Positions 7,965 to 27,458 of a DNA stretch of 33,511 nucleotides are shown here, piece after piece. The translations under genes were made by a program, and so were the position numbers. Origin of the DNA: a virus; IMG/VR virus record IMGVR_UViG_3300019093_000002, positions 1 to 33,511 of that record; one strand, written 5' to 3'. The notes under the pieces were generated by a model. The model was not told the origin of the DNA and made no database searches. It was given only the letters and a program-made list of their open reading frames with translations. The first letter of the stretch is position 1; every line of letters starts with the position of its first letter.

Positions 7965-8188
7965 TATTTGTCCTTGTCTTGTTTGTTGTCCAAACGGTCA
8001 AAAATCTTACTTAGCATCTCTTTGACTTCTTTCATGTCGTCGCGGTAGTCCATCCGCGCAACGTAGACCAAGGGTAGTTTACTCAGGTCTGTTTTCAGTT
8101 CCTGCACCGCCGACCACAGTTCACGGGCAAACCATCCAGCCACAGCCAGCGCCGCGCCGAATAGGATGTTGAGTAGTTGCTGTTCCAT
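7964..8188 (-). CDS. Small membrane-anchored coiled-coil protein (74 aa)
   Basis: One N-terminal hydrophobic helix (LLNILFGAALAVAGWFAREL, residues 5-24) is followed by a charged helical tail (DDMKEVKEMLSKIFDRLDNK) ending in lysine and aspartate. It lies between an ejection protein and a tail fibre gene and overlaps both at single bases (TAATG type joins). Proteins of this shape are common in podovirus tail regions and are often annotated as hypothetical or holin-like. A lysis or virion role cannot be told apart from sequence. Confidence 0.7.
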   Translation of the reverse strand: MEQQLLNILFGAALAVAGWFARELWSAVQELKTDLSKLPLVYVARMDYRDDMKEVKEMLSKIFDRLDNKQDKDK

Positions 8189-10068
8189 TATCGTCCTGCT
8201 TCTAGCGCTTGTTGGAATCGTGGGTCAAGAGCCGCATTAGCGCGCAAGAATTCATCAAATGCGCTTTGCTGCTGATTGGCAAGCTGGTTGGCTGCGAGTG
8301 TGCTGGTTTTAATGCCTTGGTTGGCGCGTAGCTGGTTAGCTACTGCTGCCGCACCGGCTGGCCTAGCGGTTAGCGCAGCAGCCGCCAAGCGTTGGCCTGG
8401 TGCTGAGTACAGCGCAGGGCCAGCAAGCATTCCCGCAGCAATCGCTGGGTAACCAGCGCCTGCTGCACCGCCTGATGCAATCAATGCCGCCAATGACCGA
8501 TAAGGTGTGCCGGAGTCCGGCAGCTTGTTGCCCAAGACGGTTTTGCCCGTCTCAGACAGATCCTGCATCAGAGCCTCGCCGGTAGCAAACCTTGACTTGT
8601 CTTTGCTGCGATCCATAGCACGCACTGCGCTTTGCAATTGGGCCGGCGAGAAAATACCCTCTTCAGCGCCCGTGATTCCAGACGCCCGTTGTACTCGCTT
8701 GAAGTTTGCATATCCGGTGTCAATTGCTCTTAATTCCGCAGCATTTTGCGGGTTAGATCGAATCACCAATTGACGGAATTGGTCTTGCACTTCTTGAAGT
8801 GCTTGACCCATTAGTCGCTGATCAGCATCAGTTGAGGCACTAAGCAAATTTATGCGTTCGCGCAAGTCACTCTGAATCTGTTTCAGTGTTTGGCCGGTAA
8901 TCGCTTGTTGGCCTTGGAATTTGTTGACCACATTGGTATCTAGGAATCGGTCAAATGCTCTTACTGCGTTAGGATCAATTGCACCTTGCTGAACCATTTG
9001 ACGAAGATTGCCAATTTCAGCGCCAAATACAGGATCTGCTTGCACCGTCATCCTTGGCAACAAATTTCCATATGCATCGTCCAATCTGTCAGATACAAAT
9101 TGCACTGCTTCGCGGCCAGTAGTGCCTTGGGGTAATGTTTGTCCAATTGGCCTTAGTGCCCTATTAAACGCAGCAGTGTTTAACTGCTCAACTGCTCTGT
9201 TTTGTGCTGACTTGATAAAGTCACCAATCACGGGAATGCTAGTCAAGCCTTCCTCAAAACGCTTGTAGCCACCGCCAAGGATTTGGCCTGTAGTGGGCGT
9301 TACGCCTTCAGCCATCAACGTTCTGACGCCAGGGTCAACCGTTGGGCTAACCATTGCAGCAGCGGGACGGGTGAGCATATTGATTGGGTTGGTGCGCTCA
9401 CCGCCTCGAATCATTGCATTGGCAATTGCATTTGATGTGCCGCCCATGTTAGCGGCTCTAAGCGCAGCACCGCCACCGCCTAGCACCGTGGACACATCAC
9501 CCACAACGCGGAACGGGTCTTCCTCCATCATCTTCTGGAAGCCTGCGCCTGTGCCGTAGGTTCTTGCGTAGTCCTGACCGACTGCGCTTGCCATTGCTTG
9601 CGCCCGTTGCAATGCTGCAGGATTACCTAGCGGGTTGTATGGTGATGTCTCAATGGCCGTCAGACCGCGTTGCACCGGCCCTGGCAGCGCCTTGTACACA
9701 CCACCCGCCACAATGTCGCCAATGCCTTGCGCGGTCTGCAATGGGCTTGATACGGCATCCACCAAACCGCCAATGGTGTTTTGGTACAAGCTAGGAAAAA
9801 AATTAGCAGCAGTCGCAAACGGGTTGTAGCCTGCGGGTTGTTCTGCTTCTACCGCTGGCGCTGCACCAGCACGGGCAGCAGGCATGCCCTCACCGGCTGG
9901 TGCAATGTCAGCTACGCCAAATCTCTGCCGAATAGCGGCCTGCGTAGCAGCATTCGCATTGGCAAAATTAGGGTCTTGGGCTGAAAACTTGTCAAAAATA
10001 GCCTGTTTCGTCGCAGCGTTAGCGTTGACGTAATTGGGGTCTGTCAGAATTGTGCTTAGATCGGCCAT
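8188..10068 (-). CDS. Large internal virion / DNA ejection protein (626 aa)
   Basis: The N-terminus has two copies of a short motif (DPNYVNANAATKQAIFDKFS at about 11-30 and DPNFANANAATQAAIRQRFG at about 32-51). The rest is rich in Ala, Gln and Gly, predicted helical, with an alanine/glycine-rich membrane-prone stretch near residues 525-555. Size, composition and position, last of three large genes after gp10 and before the fibres, match the P22 gp16 position among the ejected proteins. No muramidase motif is obvious. It is most likely injected with DNA into the cell envelope. Confidence 0.72.
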   Translation of the reverse strand: MADLSTILTDPNYVNANAATKQAIFDKFSAQDPNFANANAATQAAIRQRFGVADIAPAGEGMPAARAGAAPAVEAEQPAGYNPFATAANFFPSLYQNTIGGLVDAVSSPLQTAQGIGDIVAGGVYKALPGPVQRGLTAIETSPYNPLGNPAALQRAQAMASAVGQDYARTYGTGAGFQKMMEEDPFRVVGDVSTVLGGGGAALRAANMGGTSNAIANAMIRGGERTNPINMLTRPAAAMVSPTVDPGVRTLMAEGVTPTTGQILGGGYKRFEEGLTSIPVIGDFIKSAQNRAVEQLNTAAFNRALRPIGQTLPQGTTGREAVQFVSDRLDDAYGNLLPRMTVQADPVFGAEIGNLRQMVQQGAIDPNAVRAFDRFLDTNVVNKFQGQQAITGQTLKQIQSDLRERINLLSASTDADQRLMGQALQEVQDQFRQLVIRSNPQNAAELRAIDTGYANFKRVQRASGITGAEEGIFSPAQLQSAVRAMDRSKDKSRFATGEALMQDLSETGKTVLGNKLPDSGTPYRSLAALIASGGAAGAGYPAIAAGMLAGPALYSAPGQRLAAAALTARPAGAAAVANQLRANQGIKTSTLAANQLANQQQSAFDEFLRANAALDPRFQQALEAGR

Positions 10069-10082
10069 TTTTAACCTTTCTA

Positions 10083-12314
10083 TTATTTCAGCAACGGGTT
10101 TTTCTTATCAACATCACCAGCGGGTGCAGCACCTTTTCTGGAAAGCGTAGGGTTAGGTTTATATCCCTGATCTTCAGAGTAAGTTTCTATCAATCCTTGT
10201 TGGTTCATTTTTGCATATTTCAACATGGCTTCAAGTTTGGTCTTGGCGTTGTCTGCCCTATCGGTTGGAGTTGGGATAAATCCTAAACGCTGCATCTCAC
10301 TACCAGATACAGCAGCACCGCTGCGTTCATGTATCACCAAAGATCCAATGTCTCCAATTGCTGACCTTACCGCTACTCCTTTAGGATCTGCTCTGTCTAA
10401 CGCTTGGCCTGGTAAAAGATTTTTCAATCCAATTGCATCAGGGTTTTTCTTAAGCAAATCCAACGCTTCTTGAATTCGTTTAATTGACATATCGTTTGTG
10501 CTGATGGCCGTATTGATATTTGCAGGAATAGGCTTCAATTCTTTTGGCTTATCAGCAGGCCCGCCTGGAATCACTTCAAGGTTTTCGCCACTAGCGTCAT
10601 AACGGTATCCAATAGGCGGTCTGCCTTTGCCGCCAGCACCACCTTCAGAGGCTTTTTTCACTGGAACCAAATCGGAATATTTGCCGCTTGCAACAAACTT
10701 TTCTATGGAGGCTGGCGTAAAGTCATTCGGGTTGACGTTTGCAATATTTTTGCTGTCTTTAGCTTTTTCTGGCCTCAACACTAAATCAGCATAGTTGCCA
10801 CTTATCGCAAACGCCGCTACAGACGCTGGCGTATAGCTGTCAGGATTAACATTAGCAATTGTTCTGTCTACTTTGTCTGCTTTAGCTGGCTTCAATACCA
10901 AATCGCCATAGTCGTTGCTAAGCGAAAAAGCTTTTACAGACTCCGGTGTGTAATCACTTGGATTGACATTGCCAATCAGCTTATCTGCTTTTTCGGCTTT
11001 AGCTGGCTTCAGCACTAAATCTTCATATTTACCACTTACAGCAAACACTGCTAAAGATGCTGGTGTGTAATCACTTGGATTGACATTGCCAATTAGCTTA
11101 TCTGCTTTTTCGGCTTTAGCTGGCTTCAGCACTAAATCTTCATATTTACCACTTACAGCAAATACTGCTAAAGATGCTGGCGTGTAGTCTGATGGATTGA
11201 CATTACCAATCAGTTTATCGGCTTTAGCTGGCTTTAGCTCTAAATCTTCATATTTACCACTTACAGCAAATACTGCTAAAGATGCTGGCGTGTAGTCTGA
11301 TGGATTAACATTGCCAATTAGCTTGTCAACTTTGCCTGCCTTGGGAACTAAATCGCCATAGTTCTTAGACACCAAGAATGCTTTTACAGAATCTGGAGTG
11401 TAGTCAGATGGGTTGATAGCGGCGAAAGTTGTATCGGCTCGCCCAGGCTTCAACGCTTGCTCATAAGCCTTTACCAGCAATTCACGTTTTGATTTCCAGC
11501 CAGGTGCTTGTCCATAAGTGCGGTCGCCTTTTTCAATTTCTTTCTTCAATGCGTCGGCGTTTTGCAACGCACTAGCTACGGCGGGAATCATTGCGTTAAC
11601 CGCAGGCGCAGCGGCAACTGCCGGAGCCAAAGCATTGGCTGATTGCGAAAGCATAATGGCTTCTCTGCCGCTTAAATATTGCTCTTCGGATACTGGTTGT
11701 CCCCCGATAGAAAAATATGGCCCTACTCTGCCGTCTGGCATATCTTTTGTTCCTGCCACAAATCTAGATAAAGCCGAAGCTACATTAGGCGCAGGCGTTC
11801 CAGGCGCAACCATTGGCGCAGCAACATTGCTGACGCTAGGCGCAACTACAGCAGGCGCACCAATAGGCGTAGGCACAACCGCAGCGCCGCCTTCATCTTT
11901 CAAAAATTGCGCTTGTTGTTCATACGCTTGCAGCTTTTGAAATGACTCAAGCAATCGTAAGCCCGCTGCTTGCACTTGAGAATTTGGGTAATTCATCATC
12001 TGCTTTGCCGCTTCAAAAGGATCTGTTGGAGCACTTCCGCCAGATGCTTCGGCCGCTTTAGTCATCACGCTTTTGATATAGGTTTGCGCTTCATTTGCTT
12101 CGTCAAGTGTCAGCTTAGTTGCCGCAGCGCGGTTTTGCTGTTCCTGCATCCGATACGGCGCTAGTTGCCGAGCCTCTTGCATCTGCATTTGTGCAAGCTG
12201 GTTCTGAGTGTCGTTAGACTGTAGCTGCGCCAACTGGTTGTAGCTTGCAATAGGGTCACGGAACTGAACCTGTAGGGGCTGAACGCCCAATGCTATGCGT
12301 GGATCTATAGGCAT
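10083..12314 (-). CDS. Repeat-containing ejection / internal virion protein (743 aa)
   Basis: The first 145 residues are glutamine-rich and helical (NQLAQLQSNDTQNQLAQMQM). A proline/alanine linker (about 145-260) leads to seven tandem repeats at about 297-553, each built on NVNPSDYTPASLAVFAVSGK followed by YEDLVLKPAKA. The C-terminal region (PPIGYRYDASGENLEVIPGG, then IGDIGSLVIHERSGAAVSGS) matches a domain seen in structural proteins of many podoviruses. Position between the gp7-like and gp16-position genes fits P22 gp20. The DNA of the middle repeats is nearly identical, showing recent expansion. Confidence 0.75.
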   Translation of the reverse strand: MPIDPRIALGVQPLQVQFRDPIASYNQLAQLQSNDTQNQLAQMQMQEARQLAPYRMQEQQNRAAATKLTLDEANEAQTYIKSVMTKAAEASGGSAPTDPFEAAKQMMNYPNSQVQAAGLRLLESFQKLQAYEQQAQFLKDEGGAAVVPTPIGAPAVVAPSVSNVAAPMVAPGTPAPNVASALSRFVAGTKDMPDGRVGPYFSIGGQPVSEEQYLSGREAIMLSQSANALAPAVAAAPAVNAMIPAVASALQNADALKKEIEKGDRTYGQAPGWKSKRELLVKAYEQALKPGRADTTFAAINPSDYTPDSVKAFLVSKNYGDLVPKAGKVDKLIGNVNPSDYTPASLAVFAVSGKYEDLELKPAKADKLIGNVNPSDYTPASLAVFAVSGKYEDLVLKPAKAEKADKLIGNVNPSDYTPASLAVFAVSGKYEDLVLKPAKAEKADKLIGNVNPSDYTPESVKAFSLSNDYGDLVLKPAKADKVDRTIANVNPDSYTPASVAAFAISGNYADLVLRPEKAKDSKNIANVNPNDFTPASIEKFVASGKYSDLVPVKKASEGGAGGKGRPPIGYRYDASGENLEVIPGGPADKPKELKPIPANINTAISTNDMSIKRIQEALDLLKKNPDAIGLKNLLPGQALDRADPKGVAVRSAIGDIGSLVIHERSGAAVSGSEMQRLGFIPTPTDRADNAKTKLEAMLKYAKMNQQGLIETYSEDQGYKPNPTLSRKGAAPAGDVDKKNPLLK
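10656..11426 (-). repeat. Seven in-frame tandem repeats of 33-39 codons
   Basis: The repeats lie inside the 743-aa virion protein. Copies 2 to 4 are almost identical in protein (KLIGNVNPSDYTPASLAVFA) and very close in DNA; copies 1, 5, 6 and 7 are more diverged (INPSDYTPDS, VNPSDYTPES, VNPDSYTPAS, VNPNDFTPAS). The linker varies as KAD or KAEKAD. The pattern fits slippage or unequal recombination with changing copy number. Confidence 0.88.
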
Positions 12315-12323
12315 GATGTTTCC

Positions 12324-13112
12324 TTAAGGCCCAAAATTGTCGTAATAGCCCGGCACAATTGACGATTGGGGCGCAGTGTACCCACCGCTACCTTGTCTAG
12401 CTAAATAGCTATTTAGCAAATTGTTTTGCTGCTGATTTTGTTGGTAGCTGAGATATTGGCCTAGCCCACCTGTAATTGCGTTAGCGCCACCAACGTATCC
12501 AGATGCGCGGGCATTGGCAGCATCAGTCATGCCGCCAGCAGTAGCATTTGCACCGCCCATTAAAGCACTGCCCACATTAGATGCATTTGTCTGACCCGCA
12601 ACGCCTAAATTAGACGCGGTGGTTCCGCCCATTCCTGTAAGCGTTCGCAATGGGCCAAGCCGCGCTTCGCGCTCAGTCTGGTAACGGTTGAATGCGTTGG
12701 TGTACTCTTGCGATCCCATCTCTTGGCCAAAGCGTGTAGCGGCCTTCAACGCGCCGCCAGAGATCAATCCGCCGCGCGCAGCCGCAGAACGCTCTAGCGC
12801 CTTTTGGCCTTCCGACAGACGGAATCCGTAGCCTGGGTCAGCCGTAAACTGTTCCATGCTGAATGGCGTGTAGCGAGACGCTTGCACTAACTCAGGCAAA
12901 GCATTAACGCCAACATCGTAAAACGGTTGCTGACGTTTGACGTTTTCCTCGTATTGCTTTTGCTGCAAGTCTGCGGCGTACCTAGACGCAGCCGCTTGCG
13001 TTTCAGCCGCCCGCGTTGCGGCATCGGCTTGTTCGCCTGCGGCCCTATTGGCGGTAATTGCGCCAAACAGGCCGGTTCCTACGATTGCTGCTGGTAACAT
13101 CCATGCGGCCAT
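12324..13112 (-). CDS. DNA transfer / ejection protein, P22 gp7-like position (262 aa)
   Basis: A hydrophobic N-terminus (MLPAAIVGTGLFGAITANRA) is followed by an Ala/Gln helical region. A conserved block then follows: FTADPGYGFRLSEGQKALER, then AAARGGLISGGALKAATRFG, then QEYTNAFNRYQTER. The tail is Gly/Asn/Ala-rich. This block is a hallmark of a large family of phage DNA-transfer or ejection proteins. It probably leaves the virion with the DNA and helps form the channel across the envelope. It lies upstream of the two larger internal proteins, as gp7 does in P22. Confidence 0.82.
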   Translation of the reverse strand: MAAWMLPAAIVGTGLFGAITANRAAGEQADAATRAAETQAAASRYAADLQQKQYEENVKRQQPFYDVGVNALPELVQASRYTPFSMEQFTADPGYGFRLSEGQKALERSAAARGGLISGGALKAATRFGQEMGSQEYTNAFNRYQTEREARLGPLRTLTGMGGTTASNLGVAGQTNASNVGSALMGGANATAGGMTDAANARASGYVGGANAITGGLGQYLSYQQNQQQNNLLNSYLARQGSGGYTAPQSSIVPGYYDNFGP

Positions 13113-19626: not shown

Positions 19627-19989
19627 TTATGCCAAAAAGCGTAGTTTATACAGGGTTCTTAGATAAATTTCAATGATGTTGTCAATCAACTGCTGGAGCG
19701 AAGAGTCTGATTTATCACAGACATTGTACCGAGCGGCTTCAATTTCAGCCAACGAATCCTCTAGAAACTCAATGACGTTGCTGGTCTTCTTCGCTGAGTG
19801 CAAGGTGATTGGGCCAATCAAACCATGACGGCCTTGGTAGGCTTCGGCAAAATCATCAGCCGCGCCGACAATGCGCTCGTAAAAAATATTCAGCGCCTTG
19901 TGCTTGCTAAAGCTGCGCGTGTTCAGATGGACGCTGTGCGTCACGTCACGAGCTAGGAACAGCAAGCCTAAAAAATCAGCGGGTTTCAT
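19627..19989 (-). CDS. DUF5856-like helical protein (120 aa)
   Basis: An all-helical protein with LFLARDVTHSVHLNTRSFSK, HKALNIFYERIVGAADDFAE and YQGRHG motifs followed by LIDNIIEIYLRTLYKLRFLA. The H-x-H-x(5)-FxxH-like spacing and the E-R-I-D-x-x-E-x-Y helix resemble the Dps/ferritin-like DUF5856 family found beside portal genes of podoviruses. Whether it binds metal is unknown. Its start overlaps the portal stop (ATGA at 19986-19989). It could be a virion-packaged protein that meets host DNA or iron stress, but that is speculative. Confidence 0.72.
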   Translation of the reverse strand: MKPADFLGLLFLARDVTHSVHLNTRSFSKHKALNIFYERIVGAADDFAEAYQGRHGLIGPITLHSAKKTSNVIEFLEDSLAEIEAARYNVCDKSDSSLQQLIDNIIEIYLRTLYKLRFLA

Positions 19990-22199
19990 TGTGGCATTCC
20001 CATTTGTTGTTCAGGTGGCATCATCTCCATCGGCATCTGCTCCATGCCTTCCATTGGCATCTCAGGGCCGGTAATCATTTCACGCCCAGGCATCTCGTTG
20101 ACTAGGTCGCCAGATGTAATCATGCCATGAACGGTTCCCAGCACAACATCTTGAATCTGTTCAAATGTCATACCGGCCTGCACCGCAGCAATCCGTTTGG
20201 TTTCAGCTTCGTATAGCTTCACTTGCGCCTCAAAGTCCTTGCGCTGTTGGTCTTGCATTTCGATGGACTTGCCGACGTTTTGAATCATCTGGAACATCTG
20301 CTCCAACTCTTGGCCCATAGCCTGGATCTGCTGTTCGGCCTGCTGCAACTCAGGCGGCTTGTCGCCGTCTTGCATCAGCTTGGGGTCAATAGTCTTTGCA
20401 AAGCGTTTTGCCATCTCTTGAGCGCCCGGCCAGTCCATGTTCTTCACAAACAGATCACCGGCCACTTGCCACAGTTGCGGGTTGCCTTGCAGCAACTGCG
20501 CCATCGCTTCCAACGCCTCTTGGCGCTTGGTAGCGTAGCCTGGGCCGGTGGTGACCACCACGTCGTATTTGCCGACCGACGGGTTGTAGATCTTGTCGAT
20601 CACAATGCCTTCTTGGTTGACAATCTTCTTGACCGGCTCGGCTTGCATTGGGTCAATCTTGACCATGTCGGTTTCGCCGTCTTCGCCAATGATCCGCGCC
20701 ACCCGCTGGGTGTCGTAAATCTTAGGGATTAGGTCAACCAACTGCCGGGTGATGTGCCGCACGCCGCGCGCCAGGTTGTCGCCGTAGTGGTAAGTGCCTA
20801 CATCGCCCTCACGCTGACGCGCAAGAATCGCTCTTCCTGAGCGTTCGTTGGATGTCATGCCCAAAGAAGCGTTATATTGACCAGTTGACGCCTTTATGTC
20901 CTCGGACGCGCCAGCTTTCGCCTGCAACAACCCGCTGGACGCCATTGGCGGCTGGGCACGCTGCGGTAGGGGCAGAATGCTTCCAGATCCATCGGTTACG
21001 TCTGGGTTTACTTCCAAATACGGCCAATTGGTCGTATTTGCGGTCTTCCACTGGGTCTCGTAACCCTCAAACTGACCGCCATAGCCAATAAATGGCGCTT
21101 TTGGAGCCAAAGCCAGCATTTCTGCCTCTTGGGACACCCAATAGTTGTACATCCGTTGCGCGTCTTTGGCATTTCGCACAATTCCTGACACATACAGACG
21201 CCCGTCAACCTCAAATTCGTTGCCAACGATGCGAACAACGGGAATGTACTTGCCCGCCCACTCGCGTTCTTCCAATATTTCGTACCCGTTGATCTTGCAA
21301 TACTTGATTTTGCGCCGATCAGACTCGCGTGACTTCAACGGTTTGCCAAACTGGCCTTTCAGCATCTTGTCCTCGGGTGTACCGGCAAACGCCGTGATGT
21401 TCCCAGGGTACAAATTCAGCGTGGCGCGGTCGTAGTCAACGTAGTAGTAGTCCGCAATGCGAATCGTGTCTTCGTTGAGCCATTGAGACAGATTCTGGTC
21501 ACCGACGCCCAGCGACTGCAAGGTCGTGATAGGCGCCGAGTCAGGGTAAATACGCGCATAGTCGGCTTTCTTAATGTCCTCAGTGATGAAACACCACTCG
21601 GTATCAGACCCGCACGGGTCTTGGATCGTTGGATCCATGTAGACGCTGAAACTGTTGCGGATGCGCCCGATCTTGATGTCTTGGTCAAAGGTGTCGTCGT
21701 CGCAATATTCCGTCAGGATGCGGATGTAGCCTTCGCCGTAGGAGACCTGGTTCTCGCAGGCGGTGTCGTAAGCGACATCGGCGTCGGAGATGTACTCAAT
21801 GTGCCTGACCATGCCGTTGAAGATTTCGGCGACTGCAACGTCGGCCTTGTCATCGGCAGGAATAACCTTGCCACTTGGGCGGTTTTGGCGTTGGTCATTG
21901 GTAACTTGCCGGACGTGTTGCGGCAGTTTGTTGATGGTCAGGCACGGGCGGGCGTTGATCGTCTGGCCCTGCACCGCGCCGCGAGTCGCTAGCACATCGG
22001 CAGGCCACTGCCAATGATTGTCCGGGCTGCCGGCGTAGAATTTCAGGTCATCAATCTCATCCTCTCGGGACTCAGACAAAGCGCCGATGGCCATATCCAG
22101 ACGGCTGCGGGCAGTCGCCAAGATGTTTGCCGTGGTGTCCTTCTGACCGCCGCCGTTGGATACCGCACCAGCAGCGGCTATGCCGGTGTAATCAGCCAT
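19986..22199 (-). CDS. Portal protein, P22 family (737 aa)
   Basis: The length is near that of P22 gp1 (725 aa) and the family signature regions are present: DDLKFYAGSPDNHWQWPADV, NRPSGKVIPADDKADVAVAE, the GLIR-like stretch FNGMVRHIEYISDADVAYDT and YGEGYIRI. The C-terminus is Gln/Met/Pro-rich (MEGMEQMPMEMMPPEQQMG) after a long helical barrel-type region (QAEQQIQAMGQELEQMFQMI). Twelve copies form the DNA entry vertex that binds terminase, then gp4 and gp10. It is coupled by single-base or 4-base overlaps to its neighbours. Confidence 0.94.
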   Translation of the reverse strand: MADYTGIAAAGAVSNGGGQKDTTANILATARSRLDMAIGALSESREDEIDDLKFYAGSPDNHWQWPADVLATRGAVQGQTINARPCLTINKLPQHVRQVTNDQRQNRPSGKVIPADDKADVAVAEIFNGMVRHIEYISDADVAYDTACENQVSYGEGYIRILTEYCDDDTFDQDIKIGRIRNSFSVYMDPTIQDPCGSDTEWCFITEDIKKADYARIYPDSAPITTLQSLGVGDQNLSQWLNEDTIRIADYYYVDYDRATLNLYPGNITAFAGTPEDKMLKGQFGKPLKSRESDRRKIKYCKINGYEILEEREWAGKYIPVVRIVGNEFEVDGRLYVSGIVRNAKDAQRMYNYWVSQEAEMLALAPKAPFIGYGGQFEGYETQWKTANTTNWPYLEVNPDVTDGSGSILPLPQRAQPPMASSGLLQAKAGASEDIKASTGQYNASLGMTSNERSGRAILARQREGDVGTYHYGDNLARGVRHITRQLVDLIPKIYDTQRVARIIGEDGETDMVKIDPMQAEPVKKIVNQEGIVIDKIYNPSVGKYDVVVTTGPGYATKRQEALEAMAQLLQGNPQLWQVAGDLFVKNMDWPGAQEMAKRFAKTIDPKLMQDGDKPPELQQAEQQIQAMGQELEQMFQMIQNVGKSIEMQDQQRKDFEAQVKLYEAETKRIAAVQAGMTFEQIQDVVLGTVHGMITSGDLVNEMPGREMITGPEMPMEGMEQMPMEMMPPEQQMGMPQ

Positions 22200-22502: not shown

Positions 22503-22754
22503 TTAACACTTCCATCGTTTAAGAGCAGCTTTAGCGCGTTCGCCGTCTTTGGCGTTGGCCGCTACAGCGCCCATTCTTGCACAAAATGAATCCTTGCGAC
22601 CCTGATCTGCTTTGGTCTTGGGGTTGGGTGCTGGCGGTTTGAGGTTAGACCCAGTCGCCGCGTTGTACTTCTCGCGGCCCTTGGCCGTCAGGCCAGCGCC
22701 TTTGGATGTGGGCAGCTTCTCGCCACGACCAACTGACAGAGATACTTTTTTCAT
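22503..22754 (-). CDS. DUF6321-like small basic protein (83 aa)
   Basis: The start at 22754 (MKKVSLSVGRGEKLPTSKGA) makes an ATGA overlap with the terminase stop; an earlier in-frame start would extend into the terminase gene. The body LTAKGREKYNAATGSNLKPP, then KDSFCARMGAVAANAKDGER and ALKRWKC matches the DUF6321 pattern seen in many phages, usually as a stand-alone 80-aa protein next to terminase or portal. The function is unknown; a nucleic-acid-binding packaging helper is plausible. Confidence 0.85.
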   Translation of the reverse strand: MKKVSLSVGRGEKLPTSKGAGLTAKGREKYNAATGSNLKPPAPNPKTKADQGRKDSFCARMGAVAANAKDGERAKAALKRWKC

Positions 22755-24274
22755 GCGCCCATCCATGAAGTATTAACGCCGCTGCCTTGGGAGTTCACGC
22801 GGCGGGTTGGTTCCGTGTACTGCCGATGCGCCACGGGAAAGGCAAAGGTCACGGCAATCGCGTCTGCCGCGTCAGGTGAAGCCAATCCTCTTGCACGCAT
22901 CTCTTTTTTCCCTTCAAGGAAAATAGTCCCCGATGAATTCGGTTTCTTCATAGGCCCAGTTAGGTCAGCCTTCAACTGCCGGTCTGTGGGAATACTAGCA
23001 GATTTTAGCCACGATCTCATATCGTTCCACATTTCGGCACGCTTATTCCCAAACGCAATAGAGTGTTTTGCCTTGGAACCGAAGTTCACACCGCGCACCT
23101 TATACCTTTGCTCGGTCAGCCGATCTAGTATCCCGTAGCCCAACCCGCCCTCATCAATCACCGTCAGAACAGGCTTGTACTCCTCCATCGCCTCAATGAC
23201 GCGCCCGACAATCGTCATGGTGTCCTCGCCCTGATAACGCTTAATCGCCACAATGTCCCGACCTTGGCGTATCGCAATCACAGTGGCATCAGCACCGCCG
23301 CGGGCCGGATCCACTCCCATCACAATAGGCGCGGTCAGATCCTTGTAACGCGGGCGCTTGGCAGCATCATCCACCAGCAAACCCGATATGAACTGATCTT
23401 CGCCGGCAGACGGAAACTCGCCGTACACCTCAACCTTGGCCTGAGCCGAGTCCTCGCCATACTCTTGAATAATCTGCTCATAGACCGCCTTGTCGGTGTC
23501 CTCCACCGTCCTAGCGTCCACGCACCGCGTGTTCCAAAAATCCCGCTTGGCGTTAAAACACTCAAAGAAATAGCCTTCGTTGCGGCGCGGATTGGAGAAC
23601 GCAAACCAGTATCTATCGGGTGTGTTCTCCGTAAAGAATCCCGCGCCCACTTCCCAAATAGGATTAGGGATACCGCTGGACTCATCAAAGATTAGCATCA
23701 TGCCGTCCTGGTTATGAACACCAGCGTAAGAATCAGGATTCTCCGCAGACCACAGCTTACCCTCGCAGGCCCAATAGCGCGTTCCCTTTTTCAGATCACG
23801 CTCAACCAGTTCCGTCAACCAGTTCGCGGGCACTAGTTTGGTAGCTGATATCTCCCACCAGTGCGAGTTAATCAGCATAGCCGCCCACTTCGTCAAATCG
23901 GCCCAGGTGACCGAGCGCAACTGGTTCTCGGAATTCGCGCTAACCACTACGCTGCCGCCAATCCGTGTTGTCAGCATCCACAGCACCAGCCAGCTAACCA
24001 ATGCCGACTTCCCAATACCGCGCCCAGATGACACCGCCATCCGCACGGTGTCATAGGTAATTTGGCCCTGCTGCTTTTTGATGTGTGCCGTGATGTCTCT
24101 CAGCACCTCGCGCTGCCACTTGCGCGGGCCAGTAAACCTTTCTAATGGCGTGTTCTTGACGCCCCAAGGGAATGCAAACCTTACAAACGCCTCTAGGTCA
24201 TTGGCAATAGCTGGTGACCATAACTCCGTCATCAGCTTTTGCTCTTCCTCGCCTTTGTATATCGGGAGTTGCAT
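22751..24274 (-). CDS. terL: Terminase large subunit (507 aa)
   Basis: This is the packaging motor. The ATPase part has a Walker A-type SSGRGIGKSA (82-91), and Walker B MMLIFDES (192-199). The RNase H-fold nuclease part has GVDPARGGADATV (first Asp at 322), VIDEGGLGYG (Asp374) and SPDAADAIAVTFA (Asp468/Asp471). The length is normal. The start at 24274 overlaps the stop of the 644-aa gene by one base. A headful (P22/Sf6-like) mechanism is suggested by the P22-type head genes, but the terminase class cannot be fixed by eye. Confidence 0.95.
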   Translation of the reverse strand: MQLPIYKGEEEQKLMTELWSPAIANDLEAFVRFAFPWGVKNTPLERFTGPRKWQREVLRDITAHIKKQQGQITYDTVRMAVSSGRGIGKSALVSWLVLWMLTTRIGGSVVVSANSENQLRSVTWADLTKWAAMLINSHWWEISATKLVPANWLTELVERDLKKGTRYWACEGKLWSAENPDSYAGVHNQDGMMLIFDESSGIPNPIWEVGAGFFTENTPDRYWFAFSNPRRNEGYFFECFNAKRDFWNTRCVDARTVEDTDKAVYEQIIQEYGEDSAQAKVEVYGEFPSAGEDQFISGLLVDDAAKRPRYKDLTAPIVMGVDPARGGADATVIAIRQGRDIVAIKRYQGEDTMTIVGRVIEAMEEYKPVLTVIDEGGLGYGILDRLTEQRYKVRGVNFGSKAKHSIAFGNKRAEMWNDMRSWLKSASIPTDRQLKADLTGPMKKPNSSGTIFLEGKKEMRARGLASPDAADAIAVTFAFPVAHRQYTEPTRRVNSQGSGVNTSWMGA

Positions 24275-26208
24275 CAGCGAGAGTTGTCTGGATTTAAGTA
24301 ATTGATTACTGCGCCGGTTCCGGCTGCTGCACCGGCCAATCCTGGCAGCAACGTGGGATCAACTTTGCCGTAGTACAGATTACGCCAATCTGTCTCTTTC
24401 ATAACAGGGTTACGCGCTTGGGTGTATCCGGCTTCTTTGTGCGCGGCCAACGAATCTTTCATTTCTTGCCATGATTGTCTAGGCAAAAATCTGTAATCTG
24501 GATGGGCAAACTCATGCGGCTCCAACCGTTGACGGTAAACGTCCCACTTTCTCCACTGCTCTGGGAATAACTCCAAAACAGGATTTGGACCTCGGGATTC
24601 ATCTACATAATCAACCACTCGCTTATAAAACGGGTTGAAGTCTGTCAATTGTTTTGGCTCATACGCCAACCGGCCAGGCGCTGCAACATCAGGAATGGCA
24701 TTCAATTCGCCAGATGCCAAACGATATTTTTTCTCCATTGAAGAGCCACCAATCACATCAATGGCCGCTTTCTCCACTCGCTTTGTTGGCAATCCCAAAA
24801 TAGCTTCTACGGTTGGCTCAACGCCCAGCTTACCCGCCATGCGCTCACGGAAAGCATCACCAACTAACGGATCATTTAGCATTCGCTCATACGAATTACG
24901 AATCATATGCAAGTCAACTGCCGATGTATTAGCTTTTTCCAAATTCAACCACGGCGTACCAAGTGACGCTGTTTTTGGGCCTAGTCCCGGTACTTGGTTC
25001 ATCACCCTCATAGTGACATCGCGCATAGTCTCGCCAGGCGCCATTTGGAACATCTCCGGCTTATCCAAAATCAGTTTTGCAAGCATGGCCTGGTTCTTCA
25101 GATCCGCAGTGCCCAGCACACCCATGCCACCGCGGGCTGCAGCTTGGACGCCGGTTTGCTGCTGGGCAGTTTGCGACAAACCAGGCTCACCAACGCGGCC
25201 AGCCAATGCCTGCAACTCTTCCATATTCGTCAACCGCATCCGTTGAGCCAAAAACTCATTCGGTGTCAACGGCGCATTCGGAGACAGCAACGCAAAATTC
25301 AGCCGGTTAAAAACATCAACCTGATCAGGATTCTTAACTTCATGCGTGCGAATCAGTTTTTGCATCAAAGCATCATGCGTTGCCTTAGGCAAAGCTGCAG
25401 GATCAATATTGTTAGCCTTCATCCAAAACATATCCGGAATGGTGAACGTACCTTCCAACCCACCAGGAATCTTGATTTCCCGCTTGCTGGTCAAATCAGT
25501 AATCCCCAACGATTGCGGCTCAGTCAACGTCATATTCACGCCATGCTTTTCACCCCATTGCTTCCACTCATCAATGCTCGCCTTGCGGCCTGGCGTTGTG
25601 GCTGGCTGCGCTTTCATAATTTGGCGCGTCATTAATGCCTCGTCAATTGCTGACTGCGGAACAATGCCGGTGTTTTTATATTCTGGGACGCCAAGCAATG
25701 ACCGAATAATGTCCGGCTCATTCCCGACTGCAGCTTTGAGCGCCGCAGCATTTCTAGGTACGCCAGCGCCAACCGTTTTAATACTCCCCCCCACAGGCAA
25801 ATCCTGACCAGCACGAACAATCGCAGGCAACGCTTTAGGCGCAACAATGTTGCCCACAATATTCTGCCCAAGGTTGGCCGCCATGTTCTCCGTGTACTGC
25901 GCCTGCGGCCCAGCGCCAAAGCTGGACAGTGACGGCAGCATCGCCTTAACCCGATCAGACGTAGGTAGCAACGCCTGGGCTGCCATGTTCTTTGCCGTGT
26001 AGCTATCAGGGGCTGCGCCAGACAGCAGTAGCTGCCGCGCTAGTTGCTCAATATCACCAGGCAAACCAGCAACCGTTGCCGCTGTGCCCTTGGCTGCGCC
26101 ATACAGCATCGGGCCTAAACCCTGCGTAAACGCTTCAACCAAATCCTGGCCTGGGTACGCCAGCTTATTCTTTGGCCGCGCTGCGAGTGCGTTGTATCCT
26201 GACGGCAT
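24274..26208 (-). CDS. 644-aa phage protein with HhH-GPD-like signature
   Basis: Residues about 1-200 are Ala/Gly-rich and unassigned, with hydrophobic stretches. The middle has LNFALLSPNAPLTPNEFLAQ (about 303-322), common in large environmental-phage proteins. At 406-414 is VPGLGPKTA, and 16 residues later VDLHMIR (431-437). This mirrors the helix-hairpin-helix LPGVGxKTA and catalytic VDTHxxR of Nth-type DNA glycosylases, with Lys412 and Asp432 in the catalytic positions. The C-terminus ends with another hydrophobic Gly/Ala helix. It lies between the small and large terminase genes. It may be an injected DNA-repair enzyme or a structural protein that reuses the fold. Confidence 0.65.
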   Translation of the reverse strand: MPSGYNALAARPKNKLAYPGQDLVEAFTQGLGPMLYGAAKGTAATVAGLPGDIEQLARQLLLSGAAPDSYTAKNMAAQALLPTSDRVKAMLPSLSSFGAGPQAQYTENMAANLGQNIVGNIVAPKALPAIVRAGQDLPVGGSIKTVGAGVPRNAAALKAAVGNEPDIIRSLLGVPEYKNTGIVPQSAIDEALMTRQIMKAQPATTPGRKASIDEWKQWGEKHGVNMTLTEPQSLGITDLTSKREIKIPGGLEGTFTIPDMFWMKANNIDPAALPKATHDALMQKLIRTHEVKNPDQVDVFNRLNFALLSPNAPLTPNEFLAQRMRLTNMEELQALAGRVGEPGLSQTAQQQTGVQAAARGGMGVLGTADLKNQAMLAKLILDKPEMFQMAPGETMRDVTMRVMNQVPGLGPKTASLGTPWLNLEKANTSAVDLHMIRNSYERMLNDPLVGDAFRERMAGKLGVEPTVEAILGLPTKRVEKAAIDVIGGSSMEKKYRLASGELNAIPDVAAPGRLAYEPKQLTDFNPFYKRVVDYVDESRGPNPVLELFPEQWRKWDVYRQRLEPHEFAHPDYRFLPRQSWQEMKDSLAAHKEAGYTQARNPVMKETDWRNLYYGKVDPTLLPGLAGAAAGTGAVINYLNPDNSR

Positions 26209-26730: not shown

Positions 26731-26780
26731 CTGTGGACAACTTCGGGTACTTTTTACTTTGACCCTGTGGATAACTTCGG
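26731..26780. promoter_or_regulatory. Two DnaA-box-like sites in a direct repeat
   Basis: CTGTGGACAACTTCGG (26731-26746) and CTGTGGATAACTTCGG (26765-26780) form a 16-bp direct repeat with one difference, 34 bases apart. On the minus strand the second contains the consensus DnaA box TTATCCACA (26774-26766); the first contains TTGTCCACA, one mismatch away. The second lies inside the last codons of the terminase small subunit. This may mark a replication origin next to the A+T-rich stretch to the left. Confidence 0.5.
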
Positions 26781-27458
26781 TGTTATGTCCGTGACGTCCA
26801 TTCCGATCTGGACGCGGGAGCGTGCGGCCTCGAGCGCGTCAATGACACTTATGCGGTCATCACGCACGGATACATCAATCTTGTCGCCATACACCTTGGG
26901 ATGCAGCTTGGCCGCGACCCACTTGCGTGCGTCCACTTGCAGGCGCTTCTGCGCTACCCAGGCGCTGATCTCCACGCCTTGCAAGTGGCTGGGTATCTTT
27001 GCGTCCGCCAGTTCAATAATCTCCTCTGCAAGCCGCGACGCTCGAGTCTTCTTCGCCGTCTCATAGGCTTCTGATAGCGCAGGATCCGCGTCTATTAGGC
27101 GCTGCGCGTGCGAATAGCTGATGCCTGGCTCCTTAATCGCCGTTGTCAACGACGCGCCAGCACCTATTTTATCAAATATTCCCTTCCAAATTTCTTTGCC
27201 ATATTCCGTTGGGCGGCCAGCGCCGGGTCGATTCACGCGCGTAGCTATCTCAATATTTCGTGCGCTTTCGCCGCCTTCCGTCGATACAAAAGCACTGCCA
27301 ATTGCCTTTTTCGCAGCACGTTGTGCTGTTTTTGTTTCCGATTGCCCTACAAACGCCATCGCGCTACTTTCTGCGTTTGCCGCTTTGCGCGTGTACTTCC
27401 GCTTCTGCGGTGTCAAAGAGTTTGGTTCCTCTGAATGGCTTGCTGATGTCAATGTCAT
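26754..27458 (-). CDS. Terminase small subunit-like protein (234 aa)
   Basis: Residues about 80-200 resemble the Sf6-type small terminase: RPTEYGKEIWKGIFDKIGAG, ASLTTAIKEPGISYSHAQRL (a helix-turn-helix-like DNA-binding part), then YETAKKTRASRLAEEIIELA and VAQKRLQVDARKWVAAKLHP followed by KVYGDKIDV. The N-terminal 75 residues are basic and low in structure. It should recognise pac and load the large subunit. It overlaps the upstream gene by 95 bases. The ATG at 27458 has GAGGA 9 bases upstream. Confidence 0.87.
   Translation of the reverse strand: MTLTSASHSEEPNSLTPQKRKYTRKAANAESSAMAFVGQSETKTAQRAAKKAIGSAFVSTEGGESARNIEIATRVNRPGAGRPTEYGKEIWKGIFDKIGAGASLTTAIKEPGISYSHAQRLIDADPALSEAYETAKKTRASRLAEEIIELADAKIPSHLQGVEISAWVAQKRLQVDARKWVAAKLHPKVYGDKIDVSVRDDRISVIDALEAARSRVQIGMDVTDITPKLSTGSK

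Follow-up and report, generated by a model that had tools for sequence, protein, structure and literature searches.

Identification of the glycosylase signature

In the 33.5 kb record of an uncultivated virus (the window, that is, the whole stretch of 33,511 nucleotides that was analyzed here), an open reading frame on the minus strand, 24274..26208, encodes a protein of 644 amino acids and is flanked by the genes for the two terminase subunits. The head of this virus is P22-like, and the window contains genes for the portal, coat and scaffold proteins, the terminase subunits, a head-closure protein and a DNA-ejection protein; profile matches identify, all on the minus strand, the P22-like portal protein (19986..22199), the terminase large subunit (TerL; 22751..24274) and an Sf6-like terminase small subunit (TerS; 26754..27458). 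The initial annotation of this DNA, made from the sequence alone, had noticed in the intervening protein a signature of the HhH-GPD DNA glycosylases. The locus raises the question of whether a base-excision enzyme is encoded among the packaging genes of a phage and, if so, in which cell and on which DNA such an enzyme would act.

Translation of the minus strand at 24898-24993 yields VPGLGPKTASLGTPWLNLEKANTSAVDLHMIR, residues 406-437 of the 644-residue product, in which VPGLGPKTA is followed, after 16 residues, by VDLHMIR, the distance between the same motifs in E. coli Nth being 14 residues. The signature, its spacing, and the positions of Lys412 and Asp432 are, thus, exactly as annotated; of the coordinates that had been assigned to it, 24907-24993, the end stops at VDLH, whereas the whole of VDLHMIR extends to 24898. 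A single instance of the pattern PG[LIV]GxKTA-x(10-24)-VDxH is present in the window, and 2000 shuffles of the window ORFs gave none. In 1.29 million ORF residues, comprising the ORFs of all loci fetched to that point, mostly relatives of the glycosylase gene, there are 160 occurrences, all of them in members of the glycosylase family or in genuine Nth controls. A fortuitous motif within an unrelated structural protein could be argued for on the grounds that no profile library reported a glycosylase at threshold; however, the absence of matches in the shuffles, together with the invariance of the catalytic residues and the confident model of a glycosylase fold described below, practically refutes this explanation, to which we give almost no credence.

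Conventional searches were, indeed, uninformative. Scanning of the protein with hmmscan against Pfam, NCBIfam and PHROGs produced nothing above threshold, and phmmer and hmmsearch against PDB sequences produced nothing related. The HhH-GPD model PF00730 had no match in the window or in the records of seven relatives; because divergent members can escape this model, the HhH-GPD assignment rests on the fold and the catalytic residues. Likewise, neither Ogg-HhH (PF22175) nor the NCBIfam Ogg2 model (PRK01229/NF002305) matched the record, and the Pfam HHH model gave a sub-threshold match at 24964-24996, inside the helix-hairpin-helix. Weak matches to INT_rpt, DUF411, phrog_6587 and acetoacetate-CoA ligase fit no consistent picture and were set aside. 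In an HMM-HMM comparison of the family with an Nth+MutY profile (hhalign), Lys412 was aligned to the lysine of the lyase and Asp432 to the aspartate of catalysis, and the score of 37.3 (P 2e-4) exceeded the best score among 250 column-permuted controls (27.8); the reported probability was only 46%.

A complete HhH-GPD fold predicted for the phage protein

Two structure models were built, one with 24 close relatives as input and another, by AlphaFold2, with 44 more diverse relatives. The first model (pLDDT 58, poor at the HhH) was counted only for yielding the same fold ranking and not for structural detail: 11 of the 17 solved structures that it matched are HhH-GPD glycosylases, and these fill the first seven places, with MUTYH, OGG1, NTHL1 and MutY as the leading matches. 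In the second model (pLDDT 89.5, pTM 0.88; adding 143 to the model numbering gives the protein numbering), the VPGLG hairpin lies between helices 252-262 and 268-278, which form the predicted helix-hairpin-helix (residues 395-421; 24946..25026, minus strand). The predicted Schiff-base lysine, Lys412 (24973..24975, minus strand), begins the second HhH helix, in its first turn, and the predicted catalytic aspartate, Asp432 (24913..24915, minus strand), which comes after a Gly/Pro-rich stretch, directly precedes the following helix, model 290-300; this is the canonical layout. Two helical domains flank the HhH in the predicted structure, as they do throughout the HhH-GPD superfamily; their lack had been named in advance as the outcome that would speak against a glycosylase, and both are present in the model.

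Structural comparison of the second model with VIA-align retrieved 95 PDB chains at Z >= 5, and among the matches listed, HhH-GPD enzymes account for 50 of 50. The top match is TmOgg (Z 12.7, 194 of 208 residues, 3.0 A), with MjOgg at the same Z of 12.7, these two matches covering 194-198 of 206-208 residues; SsOgg follows at Z 11.8 and, below the Ogg2 enzymes, OGG1 (Z 8-10), then MagIII, endonuclease III, MutY and AGOG. Foldseek alone also placed MjOgg at the head of its list, although with a weak E-value (0.07; probability 0.96). With helical proteins, a Z of up to about 13 may be uninformative when taken alone, and we consider the assignment safe because the match list consists of a single superfamily, the coverage of the targets is nearly complete, and the motif evidence is independent. 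We are highly confident that the protein adopts the HhH-GPD fold with intact catalytic residues.

The region that superposes on complete Ogg2 enzymes in the AlphaFold2 model spans residues 269-565 (model 126-422; 24514..25404, minus strand), so that the glycosylase-like part encompasses about 300 residues and extends well beyond the motif. The earlier impression that the rest of the protein is unlike a glycosylase, accordingly, does not hold, and neither does the choice of Nth as the nearest type: as modeled, the HhH-GPD fold is complete and is nearer to Ogg2/OGG1 than to Nth. A complete enzyme of this kind was missed by the profile libraries and by the plain sequence searches that were tried; it took a diverse alignment of the family, together with a predicted structure, to recover it.

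Comparison with known glycosylases

The OGG2 enzymes (MjaOGG2, TmaOGG2 and SsoOGG2) share with the phage domain the HhH with its lysine and the aspartate followed by histidine, and 194-201 of their 206-214 residues superpose on it (Z 11.8-12.7). Unlike these enzymes, to which it is only 10-14% identical, the phage domain has about 100 residues of insertions, is embedded in a virus protein with further modules, and continues past the position of the C-terminal lysine. The OGG1 enzymes (human, mouse, Clostridium) resemble the phage domain in structure (Z 8-10) and, by end offset, at Gln315/Phe319, where the phage protein has Gln551/Trp555, but outside the motifs there is no detectable sequence similarity. 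The HhH of OGG1 is followed by VDVHM, compared with VDLHM in the phage family; by motif alignment, the phage domain appears to have no arginine at the place of Arg204 of OGG1. Nth (endonuclease III) shares the PGxGxKTA and VDxH motifs and gives the best profile alignment, with a Z of 7.5 for 1orn; however, the structural score is below that of Ogg, the phage domain lacks the FeS cysteine cluster, and the spacing from the HhH to the aspartate is longer. We regard the phage domain as a new family of the known HhH-GPD superfamily that occurs in a new context. Glycosylases encoded by phages are already known, for example, T4 endonuclease V (PMC7824862), and a literature search found no description of this glycosylase family or of an HhH-GPD domain in polyvalent proteins.

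Reading of the active site

Several further residues of the phage domain fall at places that are functionally important in characterized enzymes. The motif LLSPNAP (residues 307-313; 25270..25290, minus strand) is at the place of the DNA wedge, LLSAQAT in Nth and SSNNN in OGG1; at a loose hhalign setting, the alignment spans the barrel and places LLSPNAP near LLSAQAT of Nth. By sequence, Asn311 may be the equivalent of Asn149 of OGG1. By motif, His434 (24907..24909, minus strand) falls where hOGG1 has His270 and MjaOGG2 has His148; these histidines, which come after the catalytic aspartate, bind phosphate, and the contacts to the base are made by pairs of residues four positions apart, Gln315-Phe319 in OGG1 and Asp194-Trp198 in OGG2 (PMC3397491). 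The superpositions on OGG1 end at a constant model-chain offset of 93, which maps Gln551 to 315 and Trp555 to 319, whereas in the Ogg2 superpositions the offset is one residue out for this pair. Gln551 and Trp555, which have the same i, i+4 arrangement, could thus occupy the Gln315/Phe319 positions of OGG1 in the model. With respect to MjaOGG2, His434 and Gln551/Trp555 are conserved and are plausibly placed to be the counterparts of His148 and Asp194/Trp198.

The C-terminal part of the domain differs from that of Ogg2. OGG2 senses 8-oxoguanine (8-oxoG) through the carboxylate of its C-terminal lysine (PMC3397491). The phage chain runs about 80 residues past the aligned Ogg2 end, so this lysine is absent, and an invariant EPHE (Glu563, His565 and Glu566) falls near the Ogg2 C-terminus; the substrate, therefore, need not be 8-oxoG. 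The EPHE belongs to the C-terminal stretch with the highest conservation (residues 547-571, LFPEQWRKWDVYRQRLEPHEFAHPD; 24496..24570, minus strand), within which EPHEFAHPD contains HEFAH, a resemblance to the HExxH of zincins. EPHE(F/M/I)xHPD is invariant in all relatives, no metallopeptidase match was found for HEFAH, and a proline directly follows the motif; a structural or substrate-binding role appears probable here.

Under the proposed mechanism, residues ~144-621 would form an Ogg2/OGG1-type HhH-GPD base-excision domain that carries additional insertions. Its HhH hairpin would hold the DNA, Asn311 would be inserted into the duplex, and the base would flip into the pocket, where Asp432 and Lys412 would cut the glycosidic bond; beta-elimination at the abasic site would probably come next. 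We consider it quite probable that the protein is an active glycosylase, and it probably has AP lyase activity as well. The identification of its substrate as an oxidized purine is more tentative, and we would put it at somewhat less than an even chance.

Conservation of the family and the case for catalysis

The conserved domain (residues 144-621; 24346..25779, minus strand) is common to about 100 viral contigs. Scans of viral contigs with successively broader queries confirmed 52, 87, 92 and, finally, 96 relatives, the most distant of which are about 44-50% identical across the domain. In 84,980 genomes of bacteria and archaea, scanned twice from exact peptide patterns, a prefilter that can miss distant relatives, no pattern match was confirmed as a relative; tblastn against annotated phages and plasmids, with distant members also used as queries against the phages, gave no match. 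BFVD contains one true relative, A0A6J5LUD9, an uncharacterized protein of an uncultured Caudovirales phage.

Among 69 distinct domain sequences, both Lys412 and Asp432 are conserved in 69/69; the loss of both in homologs had been proposed as evidence against the glycosylase reading, and no relative loses either, which, together with the predicted fold, supports the original suggestion of an HhH-GPD glycosylase that retains its catalytic residues. These sequences share 92 invariant positions, including Gly408, Leu409, Thr413, Gln551, Trp555, Glu563, His565 and Glu566; Asn311 is present in 68/69, His434 in 67/69, and Gln551 and Trp555 in 68/68. In residues 401-440, pN is ~0.01-0.08 in most close relatives, with pS of ~0.5-0.9, and across the whole domain pS is ~0.7-0.9, that is, synonymous sites are near saturation. 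The protein is under strong purifying selection. In one close relative, L074 (8001-9409; a contig shared with L037), the glycosylase ORF is broken near residue 195-198 into two frames, owing to a frameshift or to a mistake in the assembly.

Utilization of a glycosylase fold for DNA binding only, for example, to protect or bend the genome ends, is not without parallel, since some HhH proteins are non-catalytic and the glycosylase homolog Mag2 sculpts abasic DNA (4b21). Binding alone, however, does not require the conservation of Lys412 and Asp432 in 69/69 sequences along with that of the pocket residues, and we regard this explanation as improbable.

Modules, gene neighborhood and proposed delivery

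The rest of the protein bears on where the enzyme would act. The N-terminal module (residues 1-143, FTQGLGPMLYGAAKGTAATVAGLPGDIEQLARQ...LPTSDRV; 25780..26208, minus strand) recurs on two proteins whose C-terminal parts differ, to which it is 86-90% identical, and, at about 50% identity, inside larger proteins with matches to ART-PolyVal, the ADP-ribosyltransferase of polyvalent proteins; among the proteins that share this module, ART-PolyVal is above the cut-off in L216 and below it in L211 and L215. Two loci, L052 (4247-5716) and L050 (5968-7152), encode the module together with other C-terminal parts that have no Pfam match, and that of L050 looks ADP-ribosyltransferase-like by eye. The glycosylase domain itself is one module among several in larger proteins: in relatives of 900-1800 amino acids it stands beside other modules, and in four relatives (L093, L080, L089 and L104) it is fused to ART-PolyVal above the Pfam cut-off.

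These features are reminiscent of the polyvalent proteins described by Iyer et al. (2017, PMC5512222), for which packaging and injection along with the DNA have been proposed. The ART-PolyVal fusion in four relatives, the long proteins with variable modules and the packaging-gene neighborhood are all shared with that class. The window protein differs in having only one recognized enzymatic domain, along with the shared N-terminal module, whereas there are several enzymatic domains in L093, L080, L089 and L104. The words 'glycosylase' and 'base excision' are absent from the main text of the survey of polyvalent proteins (PMC5512222). The earlier proposal that the protein looks like injected cargo thus gains support from the fusions and the shared module; as for the Ala/Gly-rich ends that had been read as a sign of a virion or injected protein, the N-terminal one belongs to a separate module that is shared with polyvalent proteins.

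Three proteins encoded at 8188-13112 resemble, by position and one PHROGs match, the standard ejection proteins of P22-type phages. That these look like the standard ejection set, and that in this phage the glycosylase domain is the sole recognized enzyme of its protein, speaks against packaging of the latter; on balance, we rate packaging followed by injection as somewhat favored. Two large proteins of 743 and 626 amino acids, encoded after the DNA-ejection protein gene (10083-12314 and 8188-10068), have neither a match in Pfam nor a good one in PHROGs and, judged by position, could be the counterparts of P22 gp20/gp16.

The gene order admits a different interpretation. The stop codon of the glycosylase ORF overlaps the TerL start (TGATG), and in close relatives, too, the gene separates TerS from TerL, which suggests that the protein is probably made during DNA packaging; a genuine HhH-GPD glycosylase produced late could, then, act in the producing cell, for example, by cleaning the replicated DNA at the motor that packages it. 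Across the family, the gene sits in the terminase-portal-capsid block, beside terminases and portals of differing families. In other phages its neighbor is a portal or tail gene and not always the terminase; moreover, the ART-PolyVal fusion and the exchangeable N-terminal module suit delivered proteins better. Action in the producing cell, accordingly, appears unlikely to us. In L067 (8001-17212), the glycosylase gene is upstream of genes for an exonuclease, a g30383-like protein and a primase-helicase and is not beside terminase genes; in L112 (IMGVR_UViG_3300025934_000001), which at 109 kb is three times the usual size, the domain adjoins a tail-fibre-like gene.

The probable target

The N-terminal module and the position in the packaging block would mark the protein as polyvalent-type cargo of the head that reaches the cell along with the DNA. 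Its target there would most likely be a lesion in the phage DNA that has just entered, or a modified base of that DNA, with oxidized purines as the most probable class of substrate. We lean toward repair of the entering DNA rather than attack on that of the host, since the nearest folds are those of repair enzymes.

The opposite use of the same enzyme, as a weapon, deserves consideration: the injected glycosylase would excise normal or modified bases of host or restriction-marked DNA, and the resulting abasic sites would cripple the host or its defenses. Polyvalent proteins serve mostly in host take-over or counter-defense (PMC5512222), the C-terminal recognition region is unlike that of Ogg2, and a DNA glycosylase is known to function in phage-host conflict with the roles reversed, as a weapon of the host, namely, the host-encoded anti-phage Brig1, which, unlike the phage domain, belongs to the uracil-DNA-glycosylase superfamily (PMC11078745). 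However, no modified-base pathway was recognized among the scanned window genes, the nearest folds are those of repair enzymes, and the DNA of the phage would have to be protected within the same cell, so we consider a weapon unlikely as well.

Overall, we find it likely that this is an Ogg2/OGG1-type glycosylase that is packaged, enters with the DNA and most probably acts on the incoming phage DNA; the statement that a virion-delivered HhH-GPD glycosylase of a new family serves as a polyvalent module, repairing DNA that was damaged while the virion was extracellular or excising host bases as a weapon, seems to us evenly balanced. The computations establish the gene, the motif, its invariance, the predicted fold and the fusion to polyvalent domains, and it is on this basis that catalysis, the lyase step, packaging, target DNA and substrate are proposed. 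If true, a base-excision enzyme joins the arsenal that is presumed to accompany phage DNA into the cell, and it becomes a testable question whether a phage brings in its own repair or base-cutting enzyme, so that a genome damaged extracellularly is mended, or the DNA of the host attacked, before any phage gene is expressed. In the remainder of the window, scans for promoters and terminators found fewer sites than in shuffles, Rfam and tRNA scans were empty, and the segment 32259-32741 gave a below-threshold match to RuvC resolvase (E 0.002).
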